A program made the position numbers and the translations under genes. The notes under the pieces are model-generated. The model was given only the letters and a program-made list of their open reading frames with translations. It had not been told where the DNA came from and ran no database searches. From Symbiodinium natans (taxonomy: Eukaryota; Sar; Dinophyceae; Suessiales; Symbiodiniaceae): a DNA stretch of 64,000 nt. The stretch's first letter is position 1. Each line of letters opens with the position of its first letter. The stretch covers positions 324,994 to 388,993 of the forward strand of contig CAJNDS010002500.1 in NCBI GenBank assembly GCA_905221605.1, in the 5' to 3' direction. Below, in pieces: positions 1 through 47,964 of this stretch.

Positions 1-1089
1 ATTCAACGTCTCAATGAGTCTTTGGAAATCGCCATGGAAACGATCGTACACTGTAATGAGTGCATCCCGAATGGAGATACGCACCAAGGCATTGATAGAT
101 TCAAAGCCCCCCGGCGCGTTCTCCACCAGCGCATGGATCAATTTCAGGTCCCTCTGGTCCGTGGCCTCGGCGCTGCGCAAGTCCAGCGCCGCCAGGCGCT
201 CAGCCACAGCCATGCAGACGTCGGTGCCGCCGACGCCGGCGGAGAGGACCCCAGAGGAAGTGCTCATCACAAAGCCCTGGTAGCGGGCGGCCTCCTGGTC
301 CTCCTTCCGCCGCTCATGGCAAAGACGAAATGTTTGGAAGACTTCGAAAAGGCACCAGGCACGTTGCAACGGCAAGGCCTCCTCGTCCAAAACCATGAGA
401 GTTCCTTGGCACCTCCTGTCATGCATGGCCTTGAAGAATGAGGAGCTGCAAATGTCACCATTCCCCAGTTCCTCCTTGATGTGGTGCTGGCTGTTGCTAA
501 AGGTGCAGACCCAGTATGCCAAGCCGCGGCCCTCACCCGCAACATGGTGCCCATGCCGCTGGAGCGCCTCCATGAAGTGGCGCACGGTCATGCCCCAATA
601 GTGGCTCACGAACCAGCTCAGAGCCTTCGGGCCAACCAACTCCGCGTAGGACACTAAATCACGTGCGGTCAAGGGGATCACCAAGTTGGATGACACAAAG
701 TACATGTTCCGGTCGCGGATGAAGGTTTGGAAGAACTCTTGAAAAAACAGGAGCTGCTTCAACGCCACCCCACGTGCTGCACCTCTTTCAACGGCTATCG
801 GTTTAGCAGGACCAGATTGTCGGAGCTGTTCCAGGAATCGCGTTCGGCTCTCGCTGATCGGCGTGTTCGCACAATTCTGCTGCTGGCGAAACTGAACACC
901 TAAGGTGCACAGCACTGCAACGAATCCAACAGCTGAAAGCATCAGCGGCGTCAAAAATCCACTTAGAGCGGCTCCCAAGGCCACAGCCCCAAAGGCCAGA
1001 ATCCAACATGCCAAAGGCACGTTAAGATAGCCTGCGTGCCACAGGGCAGTCCAGACCCCGAGCCTGAACCAGCCAACAGAAGTCTCCAT
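1..1089 (-). CDS. Conserved membrane protein, 3' end beyond window edge (partial)
   Basis: One uninterrupted minus-strand frame of 363 codons runs from an ATG at 1087-1089 off the left edge. Residues about 24-65 form two closely spaced hydrophobic helices. A long cytosolic or lumenal domain follows, with motifs WFVSHYWG, VCTFSNSQH, a conserved KEELG, and LDEEALPLQRAWCLFEV. I recall these motifs from a large unnamed protein family that is abundant in dinoflagellate gene sets; no function is known to me. Codon third positions are GC-rich. An in-frame stop lies 15 codons upstream of the chosen ATG; the leucine/valine-rich stretch just before the ATG could instead be 5' UTR or part of an exon. 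No intron is needed in the visible part. It lies about 660 bp downstream of, and on the same strand as, the FG-GAP gene. The gene is certain as coding sequence; its role is unknown. Confidence 0.8.
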   Translation of the reverse strand, partial: METSVGWFRLGVWTALWHAGYLNVPLACWILAFGAVALGAALSGFLTPLMLSAVGFVAVLCTLGVQFRQQQNCANTPISESRTRFLEQLRQSGPAKPIAVERGAARGVALKQLLFFQEFFQTFIRDRNMYFVSSNLVIPLTARDLVSYAELVGPKALSWFVSHYWGMTVRHFMEALQRHGHHVAGEGRGLAYWVCTFSNSQHHIKEELGNGDICSSSFFKAMHDRRCQGTLMVLDEEALPLQRAWCLFEVFQTFRLCHERRKEDQEAARYQGFVMSTSSGVLSAGVGGTDVCMAVAERLAALDLRSAEATDQRDLKLIHALVENAPGGFESINALVRISIRDALITVYDRFHGDFQRLIETLN

Positions 1090-1750
1090 CGGTCGGCCTT
1101 TCAGACACAGCACAAATAGCACAAATAGCTCTCATGTTCTGCTTGCTTTTCAGAATACCTTTAATGTAGGGAAGCAAGGAAGGCAACTACTAGGGGGCCC
1201 TCCTCCCCCTCACAGCTCTCAGGTTCCAAGTCCTAGAAGCTCGGATCTGAACCCCTTTCCAGTGCAACTCCAACTTACCGTCCCAGCAACCGGACAGGGT
1301 GCTCAAGAGCAAGGAATGCCAGCGCGCACCCCACAAAGACACGAAAGAATCTTGGAAACGCACACCAGGATGTCGACCACGACCCCGACGGAGACCACCG
1401 ACCGCCAAGAGACCAACAAAGCAGATCAAGAAAGACACCAAAAGACCACCCACCAGGAGACCACCAGGAGGAGCAGCAGGAGCTAGATCTCATCCGGCAG
1501 GCTGCCGGATGAGACAAAGTACACCCGGGAGAGCACTCGGAGAGGCCGAATCCACGCAGAAGATCCCTAAACCCTAAACCCTAAGACATCGTCCTTCAAA
1601 ATTCAAAACATGCAAGCAAGTCCTCGGCCGGTGTCACGGGCCGGGTGCGCCGCGCGTGCACTTCGCGGTGCCACCGATCTTAATCCTCTTATTTTGCTCT
1701 GAACGTTATTAAACCCCAAACGGTGACATGTGCACACTGTTTGGGGAATG
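1090..1750. other. Intergenic region between two minus-strand genes
   Basis: No convincing gene. Short open frames on both strands (1190-1577) are Arg/Thr-rich or Trp/Ser-rich shadows of a purine-rich stretch. It holds the perfect palindrome at 1488-1514 and a short CCCTAAA tract at about 1565-1585. The downstream end of the FG-GAP gene may extend into 1603-1750. Confidence 0.5.
1488..1514. repeat. Perfect inverted repeat, 13-bp arms, 1-base centre
   Basis: The arm TCTCATCCGGCAG is followed by a single G and its exact reverse complement. It lies in the gap between two minus-strand genes, about 400 bp upstream of the first. It could extrude as a cruciform or mark a mobile-element end; no flanking target duplication is evident. 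Confidence 0.7.
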
Positions 1751-4700
1751 TTAGAGGCCCAGGCCCCACATAGCCCCACAACCCCCAAAAGTCCAAGCGC
1801 AAGACCCCAAGCCCCCATGCCCGACTGTGGCCACGATGAAGCCTTCTCCGTGGGCGTGGAGGAGAAGCCTCTCTTTGCTGACCCTTTTGACGTTCCATTG
1901 TTGGGTATCGATGGTATCCAGCCAGGGAACCCCGGTTGAACTGAAGCTGACACTGGCCGCGCCACGCAGCCAGTGTCCTCCGTGGCTGGTGATGATCACG
2001 CTGCCTTCGATCTGCCTGGTAATATCAGCAATGGGCACCACATATGCGAAGGCCATCGCCGAGAAGCAGAGGCAGCAGACCAAAGACACGAAGAACGCAA
2101 GCAAGGCAATCCATTGAAGAGGGGGCAGCGTGCACTGCAAGCCCGTTTCGTCAACTGCGTAGACCAACAGACCTCTTTGCCCATTGCACACCACACAGGA
2201 AGTACCGCCTGAGGATGGTATCTGCCCGAAGTCGCACGAGATGCCTGGGGTTGCTTCTTGTGATATCCCGTGGCCCTCGAAAGACGCAAATTGTTTTCAT
2301 GCGTTGTGTTCGGCTTTGTAAATTACAAGAGAATTACAAGAACATGAAGACAGCTAGTTCTGTTTCCACCCTGGAAGCATGACAGGCTGGCTTCCGGAGC
2401 GTGTCTGCCAATGGGACAGTCTTTGCATTCACTGGCGCCAAGGGTCTGAGAATACTTTCCTGCCTGGCAAGCAGCACAGGCAGAACTGCCAAGGGTAGCA
2501 TATCGACCTGGCCTGCACTGGCGGCATTCCTGGCTGTCAGCAAAGCTCCCTGCGGGACATATCTGGCAACTTAAGCTGTGGTGGATGCTAGGGTGCCCTA
2601 AGCGCGTCACATTCATGTACGTCTCAATATGCCCTGCAGGACACCCTCCCTCTGTGCAGGTCCGATGTCCTGCTGAGTCGAAGCCACCAAAGGCCTCCGC
2701 AGCGCAAATACAGGAACCGTTGCCCTTGACTACAGTCTCATATGGTCTACTGGCACGATCCATGGCACGATCCATGGTGAACTGCGCATAGGCATCATCG
2801 ACGCAGACACCCCGAGCAGCGCAAGCCGCCCCTGCAGAATCACAAGGACACTGCAGGCAGCTGTGCACATGGGGGTTGCCGAACTTGTAGGATGAGGTGT
2901 AGTAGCCCACTGCGCAGCCAGAGCAATCGCTGAGCGACCGATCCTTGTTGCACGAGCACTGGCCGGAGCCCAAACAAGAACCCCGTCCACTGCAAACTTG
3001 AGGTGGCGTGCAGAAACCGGGATCTCTTACGTAAGGCTCTTGGTCCGCACCATTTTGAAGGACCAAGAGGTCGATGTCACCGTCGTTGTCCCAATCCCCA
3101 GCTGCGAGCCCGCGCATTGCATAAGAAACCCGGTCATCAGGGAAGCTTTGCGGGAAACAAGGCATGTCACACCGGAGCCGGCCATCCTCCTGCTTGCAAG
3201 AGACTGCCCCTTGATATGAATAATGCTTGTAGTGCTCGTACCAATATCGAATCAAGTCAAGATCCCCATCGCCGTCGCAGTCCATGACCTTCCAAGCCCA
3301 GTCTGATTGAAAATCGCCTGTGCTTGGCAAATCGCAGAAGCTGTGGTTCTCGCGGCGGACGAGCTTCCCAGCCACCTGCTCAAAGAAGGCTGCGCCGCAG
3401 GGCCCGTCAACCCCAGGGCCAAGCAGTAGGTCCAGATCACCATCCTGGTCCCAGTCGATCAGCTGCAGGGGCTGCCCTTCCTGCCTGTGCCATTGGCTTA
3501 ACTTCAGCGGCACCGAGACGCCCAGAAAGTGCTGGGATGCGTTCAGCTCTCGAAGCTGAACGCCGTCGTTGTCGAAGACTCGAATCAGACCATCGCTGCT
3601 GGTCACCACAAGATCGGTATCTCCATCGCTGTCCCAATCCACTGCGGTGATGCCTGTCCTGGCACCATTCCAGACAAGGGGAACAAGATCAAAGTCCATG
3701 TCATCTTCAACCGGTCTGCCTTGCACTTGCGTGAAGAGGCGAAGTTTTGCCGGCTCTGCCACCAGCAAGTCAAGATGGCCATCCATATTCCAATCCACAA
3801 GTTGCGGTCGCCCATCGGTGAACGACAAGCCAGCGAAGGGGTTCATGCTCTCCTTCCTCTCAACGAAGGCCGTGGAGCGGCTTCGCACATACACCGAAGA
3901 GCCTGTAAATAAGTCCGTCAGCCCATCTCCGTTCCAATCAATTGCCTGGAAACCCGCTGTGCCAAAGCTCATTACCGAACCCACCCCTCCGGGTGCTGTC
4001 ATAAAGGTCCCGTCTGCAAGCTGCTCTGCATAAATGACTCCGCGAAAAGCCATGGCGTAATGCTCCGAGTAGCAAGCAACAATAATATCGAAATCCCCAT
4101 CGTCGTCCCAATCAGTCACCCTGAAGACTTCCTGGCGATCAGAAGCTTTGCAGAGCGCAAGGCCGTTGAACGGGTTAGATCCCTCCGGGACTTCATGAAG
4201 TTCCCCGCCCCGGTTCCGAAAGTAGCGGATCTGCTCATGGGACCAGAACAGCATATCCTCCCGCCCGTCCTGATCCCAATCAACAACTTGGGCAACCATG
4301 TGCAAACTGCATTCAAACAAATCTGACAATGGAACGAGCTTGGGAGCTTCACCTTCAACCAGGGAGAAAGAGGCGTTTGCCGCGTTTGCGTTCTGCACAT
4401 GTTCCAAGTACCTGAGCTTGAGACGTGGACAGTCCGACTCGTTCGCTGTTGCCTCGTCAGTCATGATGACGTCCAGGTCTCCATCTCCATCCCAGTCCGT
4501 CAATTCCAGAACCGTGGGGTTCCGTATCTTCGACAGGCTAGGCCCTGAGAAATTCACAAGAACCTGCCTTCCTTCCGATAGATTCCCTCCCAAGCGCTCG
4601 TAGAACCACAGCTTACCATCCCGTAGGACAAGCGCATCCATGTCCCCATCGCTGTCTATATCGCCCAAGCGAACAGTGGCGAACCATGGCCTCAGCTCCT

Positions 4701-4869
4701 CGAACTGACCTAAAGCCTCAACCTCTGTGAGTTCATACTGGTTTCCGTAGCATTGACCTTTGTTGCGCCAGCACCACTCGCCTGCAACACAGGCACTCCA
4801 GAGTGTCACGAATGCCGTGCGAATGGCCATGGAGATTCTCGGGGAGCTTCCTAGGGCTGCCGTCTTCAT
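1751..4869 (-). CDS. Secreted/membrane FG-GAP (VCBS) repeat protein with EGF-like and ephrin-receptor-like Cys domains
   Basis: Exon 1 runs from ATG at 4867-4869 (or the in-frame ATG 14 codons later, which starts a cleaner signal peptide) to 2370. Ten calcium-binding FG-GAP/VCBS blades with DWDxDGDxD loops lie between about residues 70 and 610, enough for a beta-propeller. A Cys-rich EGF/laminin-like segment (about 615-700) follows, then repeats of the CxxC...C type seen in ephrin-receptor/GCC2-GCC3 domains (about 760-830). Exon 1 ends at CAGG|GT. A 125-bp GT-AG intron (2245-2369) joins in phase 1 to exon 2 at CCCCAG|GC. Exon 2 continues with four more Cys and a strong transmembrane helix (about 2040-2110), giving an extracellular propeller on a membrane anchor. 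The last ~24 codons before the stop at 1751 are Gly/Trp-rich and may be intron read-through, so the 3' end is uncertain. Family: putative adhesion or surface protein. Confidence 0.85.
2245..2369 (-). other. Intron of the FG-GAP gene
   Basis: The sense strand begins GTGGAAACAG after exon end TTCCAGG and ends AGCAACCCCAG before GCATC. Removing it keeps the frame, phase 1 on both sides, and replaces an exon-1 tail that ends in a stop with a Cys-containing continuation leading into a membrane helix. It has stops in frame with exon 1. Confidence 0.65.
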
Positions 4870-5239
4870 AGGATAAGACCATGCATTCTGGGAAATGCAA
4901 ACTGACTAGTCTGTGCAACAAGAGGCTCAAGACTAGGTCAGATCATGTCTGCCGGCCGGCGGACAGTCTCGGATTCGACATTTCATACCCGAATGACAGT
5001 GCCTTTTGTTTTAAATGTAAGGGCATTCTCAGCATGTCTGCAGGCTCTGCTCCACGCCGGAAAGCTTAAAGCAGCTCGAAACAGGATTCGTCACAAGCCC
5101 GTGTTCGATTCCAACCTGGCCCGCGGACAGCACCCATCTTCAGGACGCTTCACGGACCTTCAGTGGAGGTCTGGGTTGAAGAGGCTTGGGGGTGCAGGCT
5201 ACTTGAAGACCGAGAGGATGAATTAGAGCAAGACATATA

Positions 5240-7087: not shown

Positions 7088-8790
7088 CGGGGTCACAGGG
7101 TGCGTTGCGTCCCGAATGGACCTGGCAGAAAGGGCGCCTACGCCCCTTACAATACTCCAGGCCATCCTGATTCAGCCTCTCTCTCCTAAGTATCCAACAG
7201 CCGGCTCCTGACAAGGTGTTGGCATCAGGTGTCCTTGAAAAAAATCAGCTTCGCAGCTGACCGGAACCCGTCTCACAGAGGTGCTTGCCACCCAGAACTC
7301 ATTGGGGGTCGCAGGGTGCGTTGCGTCCCGAATGGACCTGGCAGAAAGGGCGCCTACGCCCCTTACAATACTCCAGGCCATCCTGATTCAGCCTCTCTCT
7401 CCTAAGTATCCAACAGCCGGCTCCTGACAAGGTGTTGGCATCAGGTGTCCTTGAAAAAAATCAGCTTCGCAGCTGACCGGAACCCGTCTCACAGAGGTGC
7501 TTGCCACCCAGAACTCATTGGGGGTCGCAGGGTGCGTTGCGTCCCGAATGGACCTGGCAGAAAGGGCGCCTACGCCCCTTACAATACTCCAGGCCATCCT
7601 GATTCAGCCTCTCTCTCCTAAGTATCCAACAGCCGGCTCCTGACAAGGTGTTGGCATCAGGTGTCCTTGAAAAAAATCAGCTTCGCAGCTGACCGGAACC
7701 CGTCTCACAGAGGTGCTTGCCACCCAGAACTCATTGGGGGTCGCAGGGTGCGTTGCGTCCCGAATGGACCTGGCAGAAAGGGCGCCTACGCCCCTTACAA
7801 TACTCCAGGCCATCCTGATTCAGCCTCTCTCTCCTAAGTATCCAACAGCCGGCTCCTGACAAGGTGTTGGCATCAGGTGTCCTTGAAAAAAATCAGCTTC
7901 GCAGCTGACCGGAACCCGTCTCACAGAGGTGCTTGCCACCCAGAACTCATTGGGGGTCGCAGGGTGCGTTGCGTCCCGAATGGACCTGGCAGAAAGGGCG
8001 CCTACGCCCCTTACAATACTCCAGGCCATCCTGATTCAGCCTCTCTCTCCTAAGTATCCAACAGCCGGCTCCTGACAAGGTGTTGGCATCAGGTGTCCTT
8101 GAAAAAAATCAGCTTCGCAGCTGACCGGAACCCGTCTCACAGAGGTGCTTGCCACCCAGAACTCATTGGGGGTCGCAGGGTGCGTTGCGTCCCGAATGGA
8201 CCTGGCAGAAAGGGCGCCTACGCCCCTTACAATACTCCAGGCCATCCTGATTCAGCCTCTCTCTCCTAAGTATCCAACAGCCGGCTCCTGACAAGGTGTT
8301 GGCATCAGGTGTCCTTGAAAAAAATCAGCTTCGCAGCTGACCGGAACCCGTCTCACAGAGGTGCTTGCCACCCAGAACTCATTGGGGGTCGCAGGGTGCG
8401 TTGCGTCCCGAATGGACCTGGCAGAAAGGGCGCCTACGCCCCTTACAATACTCCAGGCCATCCTGATTCAGCCTCTCTCTCCTAAGTATCCAGCAGCCGG
8501 CTTTTGACTCAACCTCGCCTCCCAGCGCTCCTGACAAGGTGTTGGCATGAGGTGTCCTTGATAAATCAGCTTCGCAGCTGACCGGAACCCGTGGCATGCG
8601 TGGCATGCGGCCTAGCACCGGCTGAGGGCTGGCCATCAACCTTCATCATCTCTCGGTCTCACAGAGGTGCTTGCCACCCAGAACTCATGGGGGTCACAGG
8701 GTGCGTTGCGTCCCGAATGGACCTGGCAGAAAGGGCGCCTACGCCCCTTAAACACTCCAGGCCATCCTGATTCAGCCTCTCGATTTTCCT
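7088..8790. repeat. Tandem array of a 216-bp unit (six full near-perfect copies plus partial ends)
   Basis: Six units start at 7165, 7381, 7597, 7813, 8029 and 8245 and appear identical by eye. A partial unit precedes them (7088-7164) and a diverged, expanded unit follows (8461-8790). Each unit contains a 69-codon minus-strand open frame closed by its own stop. As 216 is a multiple of three, the same frame recurs in each copy without being evidence of coding. A single diverged relative begins copy B of the large duplication (about 22,440-22,640). Near-identity implies recent amplification or homogenisation. Confidence 0.95.
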
Positions 8791-38425: not shown

Positions 38426-41400
38426 TCAGATTGTGGGCGCTACAAAGAGGAGTCCGAGTCCAACGAGAAGCAGAAGAACGTGGCCTCACAGGGGAGGGTT
38501 TAGGGTTTAGGGTTTCGGGTTTAGGGCGTAGGGTTTAGGGTTTAGGGCTTAGGGTTTAGGGTTTCGGGTTTCGGGTTCAGGGCAAGGGGAGGTCGGTTTC
38601 GCTTCGAGATTAAGGCTTAGCAGGGGTTGAGGGGCCGAAATGGGACCCATCTCTACATATGGTCACTTCTCTCAAATGTGGTCCCTTTTGGGGTCCTCAT
38701 TATAAGGCGGCCCCTCCTATTTAGGGTACCAAAAAAAGGGACCCTAATTCCTCCATGGTTCAGGCCTCTCAAGGCAAAGGAGCTTGGGTCTCTCAGCTTT
38801 GCATTGAGGTTTCAGTTTTCTGGACCGGTTGCGGCAGTCGTCCCAACCTCAAAATACCTCGGAAGCATCTTTTTCCTGGCTGTGAGGTAGGGCCGGTGCA
38901 GGAGTGGGACATGCGATGTACAGCCAAAGGCCTGAAGTCCCACCCAACTTCCTCTTCAGGGACCCGGATTGAAGGCTTAGGGTTCCCTAAACCCTAACCC
39001 CCAAACCCCAAACCCCAAACCCTAAACCCTAAACCCTAAACCCCAAACCCTAAACCCCAAACCCTAAACCCCAAGACCCTAAACCCTAAACCCATGAAGC
39101 CCTTCTGGGCCCCAGTGCTTGATTTTGCTGGACCGCTGTAGATGCGCTTCGTGAGCTTCATGGCCATGCCGAAGCCTGGGGTTTAGGGTTTAGGGTTTGG
39201 GGTTTAGGGTTTGGGGTTTAGGGTTTAGGGTTTAGGGTTTAGGGCTTAGGGTTTAGGGTTTAGGGCTTTGCCGTTTGTTAGGTGCTTTGACCCTCGTCCT
39301 ACAGAAGGCTTGTCGGCAATGTTCTGAAAGGCTACGTCAGGTCATTGCGCAACTCGGACCCCCAATTTTTCAAAAGAACTCAGGCACACTCCGATTTTTG
39401 CAGATCGTGGGAAATGCTTTTTGATGGACGTCATGGACGTCTTGCATCTCCTTTACATGGTTCCTAGTCCCTTCTTTTGAAAACAAGCGCAAGACCCATT
39501 GAGGCAGAGCTGCCCACACTCGCCACGAGCAGCCCAATGAGCTGACGTACATCGAAGGACTCGTGCATGCGGATGACCTCTCGGCGCAAAGAAGGAAAGT
39601 TTAGGGGTTAGGGTTTAGGGTTTAGGGTTTAGGGTTTAGGGTGTAGGGTGTAGGGAACATCCAGTCAGCTTCAACACATGTGTCCGAGACCATCACCAGC
39701 CATCACCATCATCAGGTAAGCTGCATTTCTGATGTTTTGGCTGGTGAGATCATCCGAACGAATCGTGCTTCGTTAACGGCTCAGATTGAAAACAGAGCCC
39801 TCAAGCATATAGCTCCTGAACCATGTTCTCGCTTTTTCAAGCCCATAGCCCCTAAGCCCTCATCCCTGAAAACCATACTGGCTTCAGGGCTTAGGGTCTA
39901 GGGGTTTGGGATCTTAGGGTTGAGGGGTTTAGGGCTTACCGGTTTCAGGTTTAGGGTTTTGGGGTTTAGGGTTTACGGCTTTGGGTTTAAGGCTCAGGGG
40001 CATCGTAGCACCCCCTGGCCTTTGCAGCCAGAAGTGATACGGCGCAGCCCTCCGCATATCCTGCAATCACATCCAGCCAGTGGTGCGCCAAGAAGTACCT
40101 CGGGCTTTCCAGTCGGAGGGCCCTAACCCTCTGAAAACATATTCGTTGTTGTAATCCTCTTGAAACCTAATCAGGGAGATCTAGAACATCCCAAGGACCT
40201 ACCTAGCTTCAGAGTTAGGCTCCCCCAAAATGTAGGTTTCGAGTTTTGGGGCTCAGGGTTTAGGGGCTTCAGGTAGCTTGGCAGTCCTGCGTTCCGAGGT
40301 CTGAAGAATGTAAAGCAAGCAACAGCAACAAGTCGGTGAATGGAGGGAGCATTGTCAGGAATCAGGGTTTCAGGCGAAGAGTTGTGGATTTGTTTGCCGC
40401 TTGGCTGTCTTGTATCATGTGATAATGCCCTAAACCTTAAACCCAAGACCCCCACTGAACCCAATAACAGAGCTGAAGATGAACATGATCGACTCCGATC
40501 CTCCCTATGTCACAATCGCAACTAAACGTTCAATGGCTCGACAACTGGACAAGACGCTTCAAGCAGTTGAAATTCGTCTTTTCCAACAGGGCATTTGCCA
40601 ATAGAGGTGCAGATGTTCTGATGTACTGCTACTGTTGTGAATGACACTCACAAGAGGGTAACTTCTCTAAATTAGGATCCCTTTCAGGTACTTGCTATAA
40701 GGCGGCCCCGAATTGAGGGCCATAGTTTTAAGAACTGACCCTTTGGCTTCGTGAACGCCGTCTGATGTCGTGTTTTTCATCACCGTGCTCACCAGGTTGC
40801 ACACGACCAAAGCCCACCTGGGCGGCTCTGCGTCTCATGTGCTGATTGGGGGGCGAAGCTTTAGATTTGCATGGCATAATGGGGGTTTAAGGGCCTCCGT
40901 AGACTGGATGTATTTTGGGCAGTTTACAAGAAATATTGCAGAGAATATAGGTGGCAATCAACCGGGCGAGACGCCTGCGACATGCTCAAGATGCGAGCGA
41001 TAGCGAGCCTTTCAAGAGCTGGGCTAGTCTCCCCCAGGCTTCAAAACCCTGAGGTGCCGATGGTCCCTCATCCCTGTACCCTAGCTAGCCTAACTCCCCT
41101 AAGTACCCTTGTTACCCTCATTTCCCGAATTTCCCTAATTGCCCTAATTACTCTCACTACCCTGCCAGAAGAATGGCGAAATCTTGGTCAGACAGAAACT
41201 CCCCTGGCTGCGTCAGTGACGAGTGCCCCAAGAACCCAACCAAAAGACTCCCTTTTTGTCATGTTTAACTCCCTTGGATTTGTACGGTTTTGGTTTTTGA
41301 CATCATGCTGAAGAAGCTTCCTGAGGAAAATATGGGGAGTGACAAGTGTTGGCGTGGCACGGCGTGCATGAAGTCGCATTGATCCCTGGCAGGTGTGGGT

Positions 41401-44400
41401 TCTTGCCGATGTTTGCCATCGTTTCCCAAAAAAACTTCCATGCCTGGCGTGATGAGTGGTGCACTCCCTGTGCATGCGAGGCCCGCCCATTCATTCTCTC
41501 AAGTGCCTTGGAGTCATCTGAGAGTGCCTACACCCTAAACCCTAAACCCTTTGTGGGCTTTGTACATCTTTTTTTGAGGATTCGTCTTTTGCAGAGCAGG
41601 GTTCACGTTGACGTCAAACCGAAGAAAGGTCGCACTGTTTCACCTACTTGGTACTTATAACCCAATCATAACTGCACCAATAAGGCCTCACACCCGCTAA
41701 CAAATCCGCCGACCCCGGCAGCAAGCGGGCAATGGGGATTATAGGGTCAACCTAAACCCTAAACCCTAAACCCTATAGGGTTTAGGGCATCTCTGGTCCG
41801 GGCCGCATAGAGGCCCAAGAACCACCAACCCGTCCCACAGCCAGCAAGCGCAAGCGAAGCGCCTGGGAGCAAAGGCAAGACCTTCTGGTTTGTGGTCCAT
41901 ATTCAATGTTGCTGAATTTTGCGTCGTGGGGAATATCATAGTTTAGGGTACGCTTTAGAAGCTCTGCAGACTACTCTTTTTTGGATTGTGTGTGTGATTG
42001 AAATGCATTTGAAAAGCGTCAAGTCAGTGAATTCGCATCAGCTTCAACAAGTGACACACAGCTGTACGGAATGGTCTACTTTGCCCACACTTCTTTGGTT
42101 TGACGTACTCGAACTGGGCTCATTCCGAATATGTGGGCATTTGAGCACTGGTGTCCAAATTTTGTGTGCTTTTGAGATCGCAGAGAGAAAGATGGGCATT
42201 ATATGGCATTATTGTCCTGAAAGCTTCAGCGCTTCGGTGGCTTTTCCTCTCAGGGCAAAGGCTCCCTCCGCATCAGATCAGGAGTCACCCAGCAAAAGGC
42301 AGCAAGGGCGATGATGTCCCGTGTTTTGGGCTCATGGATATGTGGGGGGGGGGGGGGTGTGGGCGGCTTTGTGGCTTAGGTGGGCTGGTCACGGAGGCCC
42401 GATTGCGCGCCTGTCACGCTCCCGGCCATCGTGTCACCCGATGGAAAGGATGCACCGTCCTTGCAAGTGAAAAACTCTGGAACTCTTTTTTTTGGGAGGG
42501 TTTAGGGTTTGGGCCTAGGGTTTGGAGTCTGGTTTTTTAGGGTCCACATTCCATGGTCACTCGAAGCATAGGCCCGCGATGGCCCACTGCCTGCAAAGGT
42601 GACGGGGCCCACCAAGTAGGGTTCACAGGGTTCAGGGTTCAGGGTTTAGGGTTTAGGGTTCAGGGTTTCGGGTTTAGGGTTTGGGGTTTGGGGTTTAGGG
42701 TTTAGGGAAGCCTTTTCATCCTCCAACCCCAACAAGTCCATAGCCAAGCTGCCGCGTGGGCATCCGTCAAAATGATGGTGCGGAAGATTCGCTTGACCTG
42801 GCAGCAGAGACTGAATTCTTAAAACAACGGAAGGTCCGGGCTCGATTTGCTTTGCGCTGTTTGGTTGGCCGTTCCTTCCTTCTAGTTCAAATTTTCGGGA
42901 GCCTCAAGTATTTGGGAACGCTGTAGAAGTATTCGTGCAGAACTTCACTTTGGCCCGATCTCCATGCTGCTGCGCGGCGTCCTCCGGAGGTATTGGTCTC
43001 TGCCGCTGAAAGACCAGTTTCAGAATGCGGTTCAGCAGCTGGCCGTAGCACAGAGCAAACCTGGGCAGCATCCTTTCAACGCCGAAGAAGCACCCCTGAT
43101 GTCCCCACTTGTTTTAATTGATAGTAGAAATGCTTCCCGAAGGGTGGCTCATCTCATGGTTCTACAGGACAAAAAGCGGGGATACTGCTTGGCTACCATG
43201 TAGGCCTCTCTCGCAAGAGCCTCGAAACCCCTGAACCATGAGGGCTGCTGGGCCACAGGACCATCCGCAGCGGCTGGAAGCCGTAGAGAAGCGCGGACAG
43301 CGTAAGGGAGATGCCGACCCCCTCCCAGCTGAAGGCCAGGGAGCCTGTCTCATGGGGTTTAGGGTTTAGGATTTAGGGTTTAGGGTTTAGGGTTTGGGGT
43401 TTAAGGTTCAGGGTTCAGGGTTTCCAGTGTGGGGGTTTAGAGGGCTTCTGACGCCCTGAACCCCAAAGTGCCATCTCATCACCATGCCCCCTACACCCAA
43501 AAGCAAGATTTTCTTGCGAGTTGGATGTAATGAGTCATCTTGCAGCCCTCAGCCTTAGATATAGGCCTTCTTCTAGCAACTATAAACCTATAAACCTCCA
43601 AGCTGAGATTTGTCCCTCGACTCTGCCTGGGTAAACGAGGACCTCCAGCCATCCCAGCGACAGGGACTGCGCCTGCCGCGTCAAGAAGACCTGGCCACTC
43701 AACATGCCGACGCGACAACAATTGAAAAAAACACTTGCTCCCCAAGCCCCTAACCCCATACCCTAAATCCTAAACCCTCAGCACTTTTTTGCTGATTTGC
43801 CTTTTTATTCTTTGAAATCAGCTGCGCTAGGGAGGTGCCCTGATGCCCGGCACACTTTGAGCAACACCTCTGGGAGCCGAAGCTAAAGCCCCAAACACTC
43901 CAAGTGCCATAATCATATATTAGTATGACAAAAATAGTCATACTAGTATACTCGTATACTCGTATACTTGTATACTAGCATGCCAGTATACCAGTGTACC
44001 AATGTACTAGTTTACTAGCATACTGGCATCTGCAAGAAGAATTACTACCAATCGTATCGTACTTCAAAGAAAGCGTCGTCCAGGTCCAGCAGCCGGGACA
44101 ACGCCATGGCCGGTGAAGAGGCTGCACTGTAGCAAAGGCCAGCTCCCCTTGTAGTATTTTGAAGCTCACACAGGTTTTGCAGGGTTTGTTTCGGGTTGAG
44201 GGTTTAGTGTTTAGGGTCTCTACATGTTGAAGGGTTCTTTGCATTGCGGAGCGGCTGGAGGTTAGGTTGCGAATCATTGGCAGCAGGTCCACTAAGAATG
44301 ACTATGAGGAGCCTGCGAGGACCACTGTGTAAACCAGTGTGAAGAGCGTTGTCTTGCGGAATCTTGCAGGTTTCCTGAGCCTCGGCAGTCGCTTACCTAT

Positions 44401-44517
44401 GGTGAGGTGTCCATGCGTCAAACAACATGCCCAAATTGCTTTCAGAGTTGCGCCAGGCTGTCCACAGGGCGTAGGATTTAGGAGTTTTGCCGTGTTTGGC
44501 CCACTTTTCCTGCTCAT
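38426..44517 (-). CDS. Multi-exon polytopic PAP2 (lipid phosphate phosphatase)-like membrane protein
   Basis: Hand-built model. Exons (minus): 44517-44313, 43737-43627, 43344-43237, 42476-42393, 41862-41772, 40098-40020 (start could be 40130), 39577-39496, 39175-39092, 38931-38858, 38484-38426. Further islands at about 42,800-42,710 and 42,590-42,561 may also be exons. Most junctions are phase 1 with AG|G acceptors; donors are GT, with GC at three sites. The first exon starts at an ATG and ends in a hydrophobic helix. Exon 3 holds a helix followed by RMVLWPSSP, exon 4 FPSGDTMAG, exon 5 a Trp-rich helix, and exon 6 YFLAHHWLDVIAG. Their order and local spacing match the three PAP2 signatures (KxxxxxxRP, PSGH, SRxxxxxHxxxD), the third being closest to plant lipid phosphatases (HHWxDVxAG). 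The last exon is a single hydrophobic helix before a stop. Catalytic residues deviate (K to R, R to S, PSGH to PSGD). The junction into the last exon does not match in phase, so one exon is probably missing. Coding is likely; exact boundaries are provisional. Confidence 0.55.
38497..38583 (+). repeat. TTTAGGG tract, acceptor side of the last PAP2-like intron
   Basis: About eleven degenerate units. Read on the gene strand the tract is CCCTAAACCC and runs to within a few bases of the acceptor CCCTGTGAG|GC at 38,484. Confidence 0.85.
38655..38750 (+). repeat. Dispersed ~90-bp repeat, copy 1
   Basis: It shares a CACTTCTCT box, a GGTCCCTTT-like box and TATAAGGCGGCCCC with 40,655-40,740 in the same order. 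It lies in an intron of the PAP2-like gene model. Confidence 0.6.
38981..39091. repeat. CCCTAAA tract forming the donor side of an intron
   Basis: About fifteen units with CCCCAAA variants. On the gene (minus) strand it begins exactly at the exon end, TTCATGG|GTTTAGGG, so the repeat supplies the GT donor. Confidence 0.85.
39176..39270 (+). repeat. TTTAGGG tract forming the acceptor side of an intron
   Basis: About thirteen units. On the gene (minus) strand it ends CCCTAAACCCCAG|GC, so the telomere-like repeat supplies the pyrimidine stretch and AG of the acceptor. Confidence 0.85.
39600..39656 (+). repeat. TTTAGGG tract upstream of an exon acceptor
   Basis: About eight units, with TGTAGGG variants at the end. 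On the gene strand it lies about 20 bp before the acceptor at 39,578. Confidence 0.85.
39885..39990 (+). repeat. Highly degenerate TTTAGGG-like tract in an intron
   Basis: Units such as GGGGTTTGGG, TTAGGGTTGAGGGG and GGTTTACGG. It lies just past the exon end at 40,020 on the gene strand. Confidence 0.7.
40655..40740 (+). repeat. Dispersed ~90-bp repeat, copy 2
   Basis: Relative of 38,655-38,750; conserved TATAAGGCGGCCCC. Confidence 0.55.
41753..41788. repeat. Abutting CCCTAAA/TTTAGGG inverted pair
   Basis: Three CCCTAAA units meet TTTAGGG through CCCTATAGGG with no spacer. On the gene strand the exon end CCTATAGG|GTTTAGGG falls here, so the repeat would provide the donor. Confidence 0.85.
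42497..42540 (+). repeat. TTTAGGG-like tract in a short intron
   Basis: Three degenerate units inside the 84-bp intron between the 42,561 and 42,476 exon edges. On the gene strand CCCTAAACCC precedes the acceptor. Confidence 0.7.
42625..42707 (+). repeat. TTTAGGG tract with TTCAGGG variants
   Basis: About eleven units in the intron following exon 43,344-43,237 of the PAP2-like model. Confidence 0.85.
43357..43432 (+). repeat. TTTAGGG tract before exon 43,344 (gene strand)
   Basis: About ten units. The gene strand reads CCCTAAACCCCATGAGACAG directly into the exon. Confidence 0.85.
43925..44030. repeat. TATAC-type degenerate tandem repeat
   Basis: About ten 8-10-base units of the form TATACTxG (TATACTCG, TATACTTG, TATACCAG). 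Within the first intron of the PAP2-like model. Confidence 0.8.
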
Positions 44518-45710: not shown

Positions 45711-47513
45711 TCAGAAGTACAGCACGAAGGCAGCGAGCATCAAGAAGCTCGGAAAGAGCCGCTGACCGTTGCTGCCCTCGCAGTAGATGCCCACGTGATC
45801 CGCGAAGTAGAGCTTTGAATCCGTGACAAACTCGTAGCCCGTCAACTGCTCTTGCACCTGTCGGACGCTGGTCACCGAGCTGGGCCTTACGGTTTCGTTG
45901 GACGGGTCGAGGAAGAAGACCACGTCTCCCACCTCAACTTCGGTGGGGCGCTTGTTTTTCCACCGTTCGCCTGCTTCGCCTGCTTCAAGGTCAGGAACGT
46001 CAGGATCCCGCACGGGTACGAAGGCATCCGGGCCGACCAGCACAGGCTTCCCTAAAAGATGAGAGAGCTCGTGGTCGATCTCAGTGTAGCTTGTCACGCT
46101 CACCGTCGTGACGGCAACGTTGCAGCCCGGCGCAGTTACCTGCCTGCTTGCATACCCCCACCTTTCGTGCATGATGTCGTAGGCGTTCTGTCCCCAACCC
46201 GCATCCGGCCCACTGGCTTTTCCAGGCGAGAAGATTTTGAATGGAGACGTGTCTGAGTTCTCAATATCTTCGACCTTCCATTCCCCTTTCAACGGAATCG
46301 ACACGCACTCGACCTCCCCATGGTGGAGCTCGCATTTCTGGTCCTCACCCCCAGACGCAGAGATGATGGTCCCTCTTGGCACGCAACGCCAATTACGGCC
46401 TCCGTTAGACGGAGCGGGCTCGTGGCGCACCCGCGATGCTTCCTGCAAGAAGAACTGCTGCACATTGAAGACCTCCTCCCAGCAGCCTGGCTCCGCCTGG
46501 CAGGCGCGGATGTGCTGGCGGACCACCCGAGCACGCACCTCCGCGGAGGACCTGCGGAAGAGCTCCCTGAAGCCCAGGTTGGCCTTGAGCCGGGCCTTGA
46601 GCGCAGCCTCCTGAAGGATGCTTTTGGGATCTGCAAAAAGCAACGGCAACAATATTGTAGTATTTGTCGTATATTCTAGTATAGTATATTCTAGTACAGT
46701 ATACTCTAGTATAGTATATTCTAGTATGGCATAGTATAGTAGATCATACTCCCGAAGGATGCTCGGGGTCTGCAAAAGGATTGTATTGTAGCATCGTACA
46801 GTTGTTTTATAGTATAATATAGTATAGCATCGTATCGTATAGTACAGTATGGTATAGTATAGTATAGTAAAGTAAAGTAAAGTGAAGTAAAGTATATTAC
46901 AGTGTAGTGGATTATACTCCTGAAGGACGCTCGGGATCTGCAAGAGGTCTGCGGCGGAATGGTTTTCGAAGGCCTCCTCGTCGAAGTGGGCGGAGAGGAG
47001 GTCGTCCGCCTCGCGGCAGAAGTCGGCCAAGGCTGGGTCGGGGGTCTCCTTCACCAAGTCACCGGGCCCAAACTGCCGGCCTGAGAATGTGAAGAGGGTT
47101 GCACCCAGCGAAGCGCACAAAATCTCGTTGTACTGGTTGTTGCAGCAGACATCGAAGCCCAACTTCCAGGCGGACCAGTTGGCATTGTAGAAGTGCTCTT
47201 CTTCCTCCTCCTGGGTCTTGTTGAGGCACTGCGAGATCATCTTGCTGCACCCCGAGTGCTGCGGCGATGAGAACGGATTGGCACGGCGATATCCGTGCTG
47301 CAGAAGGGCATGCCCAACCGGTGGCAGTGCACAACTCCCGTCTGCAAGGCATTCAGTCCCTGAGCCCTTCGCAACGACGATGATTGCGGCGAGTGCGAAG
47401 CTAAGCATCGTGGCTGTCACGATGATTGCGGTACACACGGGAGAAGATAAATGTTTTCGAGCTGCAAGGCTTGCGGCACCAGTGGGTCCTCTTAAGTATC
47501 CGAGCTGGCGCAT
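45711..47513 (-). CDS. Signal-anchored protein with NlpC/P60-like (papain-fold) C-terminal domain
   Basis: The frame is open from 47,672 upstream of this start, but the first ATG is at 47,511-47,513; upstream codons may belong to another exon. About residue 25 after that ATG a 24-residue hydrophobic segment gives a signal anchor, followed by a Cys-rich lumenal part. The C-terminal 180 residues contain the NlpC/P60-type layout: GCNVAV (nucleophile Cys candidate, codon 46122-46124), a Pro/Trp-containing spacer, VGDVVFFLD, then ADHVGIYC (His candidate), with the usual spacing of about 65 and 45 residues. In that superfamily such enzymes cleave peptide or amide bonds, often in cell-wall peptides; the substrate here is unknown. 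A 309-bp TA-rich insert (46611-46919) lies in frame without stops and is best read as an intron; its removal joins IPSVLQ to EAALKA. The frame ends in a hydrophobic tail. Coding is near certain; the domain call rests on motifs only. Confidence 0.7.
   Translation of the reverse strand: MRQLGYLRGPTGAASLAARKHLSSPVCTAIIVTATMLSFALAAIIVVAKGSGTECLADGSCALPPVGHALLQHGYRRANPFSSPQHSGCSKMISQCLNKTQEEEEEHFYNANWSAWKLGFDVCCNNQYNEILCASLGATLFTFSGRQFGPGDLVKETPDPALADFCREADDLLSAHFDEEAFENHSAADLLQIPSVLQEYNPLHCNILYFTLLYFTILYYTILYYTIRCYTILYYKTTVRCYNTILLQTPSILREYDLLYYAILEYTILEYTVLEYTILEYTTNTTILLPLLFADPKSILQEAALKARLKANLGFRELFRRSSAEVRARVVRQHIRACQAEPGCWEEVFNVQQFFLQEASRVRHEPAPSNGGRNWRCVPRGTIISASGGEDQKCELHHGEVECVSIPLKGEWKVEDIENSDTSPFKIFSPGKASGPDAGWGQNAYDIMHERWGYASRQVTAPGCNVAVTTVSVTSYTEIDHELSHLLGKPVLVGPDAFVPVRDPDVPDLEAGEAGERWKNKRPTEVEVGDVVFFLDPSNETVRPSSVTSVRQVQEQLTGYEFVTDSKLYFADHVGIYCEGSNGQRLFPSFLMLAAFVLYF
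46611..46919 (-). other. In-frame, stop-free TA-rich intron flanked by direct repeats
   Basis: The exon sequence ATCC(C/T)TCAGGAG at the donor side is repeated at the acceptor side and once more in the middle (about 46,751). Sub-units are 168 and 141 bp, both multiples of three. Cutting at equivalent positions gives ...CTTCAG|GAGTAT ... CTTCAG|GAGG, a GA-AG intron of 309 bp. Unspliced it would encode Leu/Ile/Tyr repeats. Confidence 0.55.
46640..46912. repeat. TAGTA/TATAG pentamer-rich repeat
   Basis: AT-rich degenerate pentamers (TAGTA, TATTC, AAGTA) fill both sub-units of the intron and contrast sharply with the GC-rich exons on each side. Confidence 0.85.
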
Positions 47514-47964
47514 CACCCGATACAGCAGGCAACTCCTACGGATCTCAACCGCTCGAGCACTCTCGCTGAAAGAATCGCACACGCCCTTTTTGTAAGCGAA
47601 GAACAGCTCAATGACTACCCTGAACTGCTCGTTTGACAAAACCTCAGATGACAGGAATGCGCCAAAAAACAAAACAAGGTCGATCCTCTCGGCAGTGAAG
47701 CTGAGCAGCCGGCTGCTGTACTTGAGCTCCAGTCCTGACCAGCTTCACTGGGATCGCTTTGCGGAATGGCAGCCGTGGAAGGATGCCAATGGCATGACTC
47801 GGCATGATGGTTAGAGCTTACGCCGTGGAACTGCCAACTAGCTGGACAGCTCCCTTACGATGCTTGTGGAGCCCCTTTTTTTTGGAACGCTCTTATAACA
47901 ACAAATGTAGAAGCCAAGAACCTTACACTTCCCAGGCAGACTCTGCACGGCTCTCCCGGCAGTT

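Follow-up and report, generated by a model that had tools for sequence, protein, structure and literature searches.

Telomere-type repeats at the intron ends of a PAP2 gene in the dinoflagellate Symbiodinium natans

Introduction

What part can tracts of telomere repeat play between the exons of a gene? The question is raised by a stretch of 64,000 nucleotides (the window) from the free-living dinoflagellate Symbiodinium natans, the end of contig CAJNDS010002500.1 (positions 324,994–388,993), in which the exons of a minus-strand gene of the PAP2 type lie as islands among tracts of TTTAGGG and CCCTAAA. A reading made from the letters alone (the sequence-only reading) had proposed that the repeat supplies donor, branch site and acceptor, and that telomeric DNA inserted into a gene could act as a ready-made intron. 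We report here that arrays of the repeat cluster at the intron ends of this gene beyond chance, that its donors lie outside the tracts, and that the 3′ end of some S. natans introns is probably telomere sequence. The earlier observation is partly confirmed and its interpretation partly supported.

In dinoflagellate introns the acceptor is typically followed by G. Dinoflagellate introners are reportedly the subject of a paper by Roy et al. (2023, Curr Biol). According to the accessible part of PMC11453091, the dinoflagellate telomere unit is TTTAGGG, and GC-AG and GA-AG borders occur in 25–74% in Symbiodiniaceae. The accessible parts of two further papers describe introners: those of S. microadriaticum have target duplications of 4 bp, and their inverted repeats carry the 3′ splice site (PMC9860276), and those of Amoebophrya have inverted repeats of 8–20 nt (PMC7789003). 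The effect of human interstitial telomeres on splicing is named as something to test in the available portion of PMC7215372. No word starting with 'telomer' occurs in the available text of PMC9860276 or in that of the main text of the S. natans genome paper (PMC8045281), which describes Iso-Seq and RNA-seq reads. Searches of an open-access library, which lacks most subscription papers, brought up no account of telomere repeats at the ends of dinoflagellate introns, and the available portions of PMC12730881, PMC1805493 and PMC11508785 contain nothing on the subject.

Results

The host gene and its splice sites

The coding islands named by the sequence-only reading were joined with further coding-looking islands as the query of a homolog search, which matched 11 proteins (P0001–P0011). 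Among the nine best homologs, the named ones came from S. natans (P0001), Durusdinium trenchii (P0003 and P0006) and Effrenium voratum (P0004), and P0005 (MMETSP) and P0007 (EukProt TRINITY) from transcript collections; seven of the nine carried the PAP2 label PF01569, P0008 and P0009 being without it. P0001, the product of the same gene, matched PF01569 with 48.0 bits (cut-off 27.2, E = 1.3e-12), which places it in the PAP2 superfamily; an incomplete 200-residue join of the gene gave no Pfam match. Judged by these similarities, the minus-strand gene at 44,107–38,426 is a real PAP2 gene, and the identity first suggested from the letters was borne out. Its end at 38,426, with the stop codon, also stood; its start had been set near 44,517, and the homologs put it at 44,107.

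A homolog-guided model of 229 residues was mapped onto the window by spliced alignment, using a script that permitted only GT, GC or GA donors and AG acceptors. All 229 residues were identical over 44,107–38,429 plus stop, in 12 exons separated by 11 introns (Table 1), and the score of 1066 equals 1145 minus the intron penalties. The exon borders rest on homologous proteins, two of them from the transcript collections. In a tblastn search with P0005, to which no splice rules apply, exons 2, 3, 4, 6, 7 and 9 were matched with E < 1e-4, exon 10 with E = 0.009 and exon 11 with E = 0.029, and exons 1, 8 and 12 were not matched. Exon 1 and the gene start are placed from homologs only, P0001 starting in exon 2. 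Under the restrictions of the script, the acceptor read AG/G (the slash marks the splice site) in 11 of 11 introns, and the donor was GC in nine, GT in one and GA in one; on these borders all 11 introns would fit the dinoflagellate spliceosomal type, with a GC, GT or GA donor and an AG/G acceptor. The donor of intron 1, at 44,077, is apparently GA (GAC/GACGCT). In introns 2 and 6, and in none of the others, CAG/GC recurs at the two borders.

P0001 bears the name Znhit2 despite its PAP2 match. In P0009 (symbB.v1.2.013946) a PF04438 N-terminus is fused to a PAP2-like part, and a fusion of this type is perhaps the source of that name.

Telomeric arrays at the intron ends

The tracts are present where the sequence-only reading had placed them, and its description of the exons as islands between them held, none of the 12 containing a unit even with one mismatch. 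At least one exact heptamer occurs in 9 of the 11 introns. Counted by a stricter rule (at least three near-units, of which at least two exact), eight arrays are spread over six introns; they are called C-type or G-type according to whether the sense strand reads CCCTAAA or TTTAGGG. Four arrays, all C-type, stop 6, 13, 14 and 22 nt upstream of an acceptor, three start 27 nt (C-type), 28 nt and 29 nt (both G-type) past a donor, and one of C-type starts at 45 nt. Seven of the eight thus lie at most 30 nt from a splice site, where random placement gave 1.49 on average, and 0 of 20,000 simulations reached seven: the arrays cluster at the intron ends of this gene beyond chance. Near-units included, the repeats often come to within 27–45 nt of a donor and 6–30 nt of an acceptor, the last near-unit of intron 5 stopping 30 nt upstream of the acceptor at 42,459. 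A head-to-head telomere junction, CCCTAAACCCTATAGGGTTTAGGG in the sense direction, occupies 41,750–41,790, just past the intron 7 donor.

The telomere repeat is not the donor in this gene, because all three donors that had been proposed at the start of a tract proved misplaced: the exon thought to stop at 41,772 ends 35 nt upstream at 41,807 (TAT/GCGGCC), that at 39,092 ends 27 nt upstream at 39,119 (TCAA/GCACTGG), both with GC, and that at 43,237 ends 20 nt upstream at 43,257 (CCT/GTGGCCC), with GT. None of the 11 donors lies within a tract. The residues TGAQKGFM implied by the 39,092 donor are absent at that junction from P0001–P0005 and P0007; P0006, P0008 and P0009 diverge or stop upstream of it.

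The acceptors fared better. Those given at 43,344, 39,175 and 38,484 were exact, and the fourth, given at 42,476, belongs at 42,459 (CTTGCAAG/GAC). In intron 10 the C-rich strand does stand at the 3′ end, as had been proposed, and because only CCCCAG separates the array from the exon, the branch point and the pyrimidines would lie in the telomeric repeat (CCCTAAAC), except if some 90 nt or more separate the branch point from the acceptor. A clear branch consensus was not seen in the other introns of the gene.

Folding was assessed with 12–20 shuffles per intron. Intron 11 forms a single long hairpin (-321 kcal/mol, z about -10 to -12), with 77 pairs between its first and last 100 nt. Among the 11 introns, only introns 11, 1 (z -4.9) and 9 (z -2.5) folded more than two standard deviations better than shuffles; intron 1 has five pairs between its ends, and intron 10 reached a z of about -0.7 to -1.6. 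A hairpin as a general intron feature was rejected, the ends being joined in a long hairpin in 1 of 11 introns.

Table 1. Predicted exons of the PAP2 gene and its array-bearing introns (window positions; array types in the sense direction)
Feature	Position	Strand	Splice sites	Telomeric array	Placement
Exon 1 (MALSRLLDLD)	44,078–44,107	minus	GA donor		start from homologs; absent from P0001
Exon 2	43,627–43,690	minus	GC donor at 43,626		spliced alignment, tblastn
Intron 2	43,345–43,626	minus		C-type, 43,358–43,420, ends 13 nt upstream of acceptor	
Exon 3	43,257–43,344	minus	acceptor ACAG/GC; GT donor at 43,256		spliced alignment, tblastn
Exon 4	42,979–43,060	minus			spliced alignment, tblastn
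Exon 5	42,753–42,797	minus			spliced alignment
Intron 5	42,460–42,752	minus		C-type, 42,631–42,707, starts 45 nt downstream of donor	
Exon 6 (FPSGDTMAG)	42,411–42,459	minus			spliced alignment, tblastn
Exon 7	41,807–41,862	minus			spliced alignment, tblastn
Intron 7	40,818–41,806	minus	GC donor at 41,806	G-type, 41,750–41,777, 29 nt downstream of donor	
Exon 8 (VGFGRV), 17-nt micro-exon	40,801–40,817	minus			spliced alignment; residues conserved in most homologs
Exon 9 (YFLAHHWLDVIAG)	40,020–40,098	minus			spliced alignment, tblastn
Intron 9, first array	39,578–40,019	minus		C-type, 39,950–39,992, 27 nt past donor	
Intron 9, second array		minus		C-type, 39,600–39,655, 22 nt upstream of acceptor	
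Exon 10	39,514–39,577	minus			spliced alignment, weak tblastn
Intron 10	39,176–39,513	minus	acceptor CCCCAG/GC	C-type, 84 nt, 39,182–39,265, 6 nt upstream of acceptor	
Exon 11	39,119–39,175	minus	GC donor at 39,118		spliced alignment, weak tblastn
Intron 11	38,485–39,118	minus		G-type, 28 nt past donor; C-type, 14 nt before acceptor	
Exon 12 with stop codon	38,426–38,484	minus			spliced alignment

Age of intron 2

P0010 and P0011, from ENA contigs of relatives, contain the sequence of exon 3 with the same start (R/GSLAF) and run on beyond its donor with PEAQQ and PAAQQ, as in a read-through. Upstream of the exon 3 start they have stop-free runs of 70 and 13 residues, respectively, incompatible with a pure CCCTAAA array; the tract of intron 2 is therefore probably younger than the intron itself. 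Should these upstream residues come from reading through the intron, R/GSLAF implies AG/GC at the border, and the acceptor predates the tract. The argument fails if the two proteins come from a splice-aware program that joined other exons to them. On this evidence, the claim that a telomere insert made the intron is doubtful, the same exon 3 start occurring in both relatives with no preceding array.

Orientation of arrays where the gene strand is known

The array rule was applied by script to 53 exons (12 of the PAP2 gene, 9 of a TPR gene in the stretch L030 and 32 of kinesin genes), taking the nearest array within 150 nt; the kinesin set comprises the exons looked at among 98 genome matches. 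On the acceptor side, 15 arrays were C-type and 3 G-type (p = 0.0075), an excess that we consider suggestive. The PAP2 gene contributed four C-type and no G-type arrays on the acceptor side and two of each on the donor side, and the L030 gene seven and none on the acceptor side, with four G-type and two C-type on the donor side. Distances from array to acceptor, measured by eye, were smaller for C-type than for G-type arrays (p = 0.028, 15 versus 3 values). One kinesin exon (L042), in which the frame is certain, closely copies the PAP2 arrangement: a tract stops about 8 nt upstream of TTCAAG/G, and a G-type array starts about 30 nt downstream of the matched part. In what was sampled, the crowding of introns by repeats up to their acceptors is real.

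The gene in L030, on the minus strand, gave a TPR_10 match above cut-off when two exons were joined (E = 2.5e-7) and a TPR match below cut-off when nine pieces were linked by X spacers (E = 9.9e-5); the homolog search returned a single weak TPR match. In L024, L014 and L026, scanning three minus-strand frames per stretch against Pfam gave nothing helpful for intron borders, L026 having a sub-threshold match. In L024, an exon for an RZ-type zinc finger (PF20173, E = 1.1e-13) was placed by hand at 4,514–4,648 (minus) from residues 1785–1829, which shows that there is a minus-strand gene in this array-rich stretch.

Orientation and repeat load in a genome sample

The assembly comprises 759,417,921 bases in 2,543 contigs as counted here. 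Across it, the 14-mer CCCTAAACCCTAAA occurs 1,787,600 and 1,788,098 times on the two strands (total 3,575,698), and its backward-read control 280 and 257 times (total 537). Because each match adds at least 7 new bases, the telomere repeat makes up 25 Mb or more, no less than 3.3% of the assembly. For orientation we used a sample made of the window and 23 other stretches (L009–L031, of which L009 and L010 adjoin the window), 24 stretches with 286,493 bases, 7,600 of them N, and 194 arrays; as tandem telomere heptamers away from contig ends, these arrays count as interstitial telomeric sequences (ITS).

In this sample the gene strand need not be known, and C and G arrays are those that read CCCTAAA and TTTAGGG, respectively, on the plus strand. 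A gap of 60–180 nt separated neighbouring arrays in 34 of 53 C-to-G pairs and in 10 of 54 G-to-C pairs (Fisher p = 1.8e-6), and in 14 of 42 C-to-C and 5 of 29 G-to-G pairs. None of 5,000 within-locus label shuffles reached the observed difference between the first two; with the window left out the counts were 32 of 47 versus 10 of 49, and by locus nine favoured the outward order, one opposed it and six were ties (p = 0.021). Exon-sized gaps thus tend to sit between outward-pointing arrays, the gaps being proven exons in few cases only.

The arms of putative introns, taken as 37 G-to-C pairs, were no more alike in unit variants than distant arrays (0.103 versus 0.110), and inverted copying of the arms was rejected. 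The two edges of an exon-sized gap had a mean similarity of 12.95 to each other, versus 11.06 for cross pairs and 10.32 for the direct control, partly owing to the stretch L031. A common sequence beside the arrays was clear in that locus only and was not retained as a general feature. At L031:4,842–4,987, the two edges of an exon-sized gap between arrays are inverted copies of about 27 nt.

Discussion

Considering these results, we propose, with a probability of about 0.6, that these are ordinary dinoflagellate spliceosomal introns into which interstitial telomeric repeats have been inserted or expanded, the C-rich strand being tolerated and apparently used as the 3′ end. The repeats would have entered introns already in existence, and may stem from telomerase or telomeric RNA acting at broken DNA, as proposed for mammalian short interstitial telomeres; exons would be left as islands once the repeats had filled the introns. 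None of AG, GT, GC and GA occurs in a pure C-rich strand, and in a pure G-rich strand every unit has one AG and one GT. With its adenosines and pyrimidines and its lack of AG, the C-rich RNA strand could act as an intron 3′ end, whereas the G-rich strand, read as TTTAG/GG, would carry a potential false acceptor in each 7-nt unit and would be kept farther from acceptors. That only the G-rich tract offers false AG/G-like acceptors can explain the C-type arrays at true ones.

Several results weigh against this reading. On the donor side of the 53 exons there was no polarity, with seven G-type and five C-type arrays (p = 0.77); a by-eye tally of 9 to 3 was withdrawn, weak tracts having been counted in it. 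The pattern of outward-pointing arrays seen irrespective of strand is therefore unsupported on the donor side by known strands. On the acceptor side, the kinesin exons were near parity (four C-type, three G-type; donor side one of each), only 7 of the 32 had a tract within 150 nt upstream, and removal of the PAP2 gene left 11 versus 3 (p = 0.057). The exons of the TPR gene were picked by eye, and the distance comparison had given p = 0.010 on 12 versus 3 by-eye values, three having first been omitted. A loose test for open exons did not tell array-flanked gaps from others. Exon finding by codon usage has almost no power here, the PAP2 coding sequence itself scoring 0.08 per codon, and gave p = 0.19 on the acceptor side and p = 3e-6 on the donor side, the latter on uncertain exons. 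Unit variants appeared somewhat more alike across C-gap-G (0.182) and G-G (0.181) than between distant arrays (0.110). Finally, the 14-mer density of the sample (2,356 per Mb) is half that of the genome (4,708 per Mb), and the reverse order of CCCTAAACCC N90-120 GGGTTTAGGG, found 118,934 times in the whole genome, is rarer in it (64.5 versus 156.6 per Mb); the sample is therefore not fully representative.

Slippage or repair might instead place repeats in any non-coding DNA, a tract within an exon would break the frame, and orientation would be noise or local clustering. Such passive filling agrees with the tract-free exons, the 4 to 3 at kinesin acceptors and the 7 to 5 on the donor side, and conflicts with the orientation at exon-sized gaps, which no label shuffle reproduced, with the 15 to 3 on the acceptor side and with the arrays gathered within 30 nt of the PAP2 splice sites; we hold it possible, though rather unlikely. 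The outward polarity on both sides, if real genome-wide, would need a process with a direction, for instance the addition of telomeres at each of two broken ends. A genome-wide capping of broken intron DNA by telomerase or telomeric RNA, giving (CCCTAAA)n-exon-(TTTAGGG)n, as expected of ends that were capped and rejoined, with a spliceosome that uses the C-rich strand as a general branch-and-pyrimidine region, seems unlikely, and we lowered our estimate of it somewhat because of the donor-side recount.

The introns could also be copies of a DNA transposon, that is, introners with telomere-like terminal inverted repeats and their own splice sites. The S. microadriaticum introners mentioned above, the G-to-C geometry of intron 11 and the CAG/GC that borders introns 2 and 6 on either side would fit this origin. 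The failure of the arms of the 37 G-to-C pairs to resemble each other more than distant arrays do is evidence against a single mobile element whose ends match, a long end-to-end hairpin is confined to intron 11, and little common sequence was found at the edges of exon-sized gaps, no search for a dispersed whole-intron family having been made; an introner origin thus appears improbable. That a telomere insert brings donor, branch site and acceptor with it, as the sequence-only reading held, draws on acceptors directly past CCCTAAA units in the PAP2 gene and in the kinesin exon L042. It is contradicted for the donors of the PAP2 gene, and the intron 2 acceptor is seemingly present without an array in two relatives, which makes it very improbable. 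If TTTAGGG arms paired with CCCTAAA arms in the pre-mRNA and joined donor to acceptor as a selected function, the hairpin of intron 11 would be accounted for; as only introns 11, 1 and 9 fold clearly better than shuffles, and intron 10 with its long array does not, we give this idea hardly any credence.

The proposed reading, repeats within ordinary introns, sets the locus among known systems as follows. All 11 PAP2 introns fit the ordinary dinoflagellate introns with GC or GA donors, and they differ from these in that their interiors largely, and their 3′ ends in some cases, are telomeric array. Mammalian short ITS resemble those of S. natans in being telomere-type repeats at internal sites, human ones lying in no exons and in some introns, according to the available portion of PMC7215372. 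Human ITS differ in that, by the same partial text, 31% are intronic, a share that random insertion could give (PMC7215372), whereas the arrays of the PAP2 gene gather at intron ends and the repeat load of S. natans amounts to 3.3% or more of the assembly. The introners of S. microadriaticum and Amoebophrya are alike in their inverted-repeat ends and unusual donors, as far as the accessible text goes (PMC9860276, PMC7789003). In contrast to introners, no shared family ends were found at the gaps sampled in S. natans, the arms are not copies, and the repeat is the telomere heptamer. With its load of telomere repeat, some of it close to splice sites in the stretches studied, S. natans offers a natural experiment both on how telomere repeats reach chromosome interiors and on the minimum sequence needed by a 3′ splice region; if the proposed reading is true, telomeric DNA might be a working part of many introns.

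Other features of the window

A search of a phage collection gave no match. An open frame at 4–1,131 (minus) has no Pfam domain and drew 28 protein matches among 8,000 candidates scored, the named ones from Symbiodiniaceae. A long open frame at 2,329–4,905 (minus) encodes FG-GAP repeats (PF13517, E = 4.5e-35) together with a stretch resembling ephrin receptors, and at 7,089–8,502 a 216-bp unit stands in tandem in 6.5 copies with 99% match. GTATA/TATAG microsatellites at 46,669–46,908 fall within a 676-aa open frame (45,717–47,744, minus), where they are read as LLYFTILYYTILYY; this part of the frame may be an intron left open by chance.

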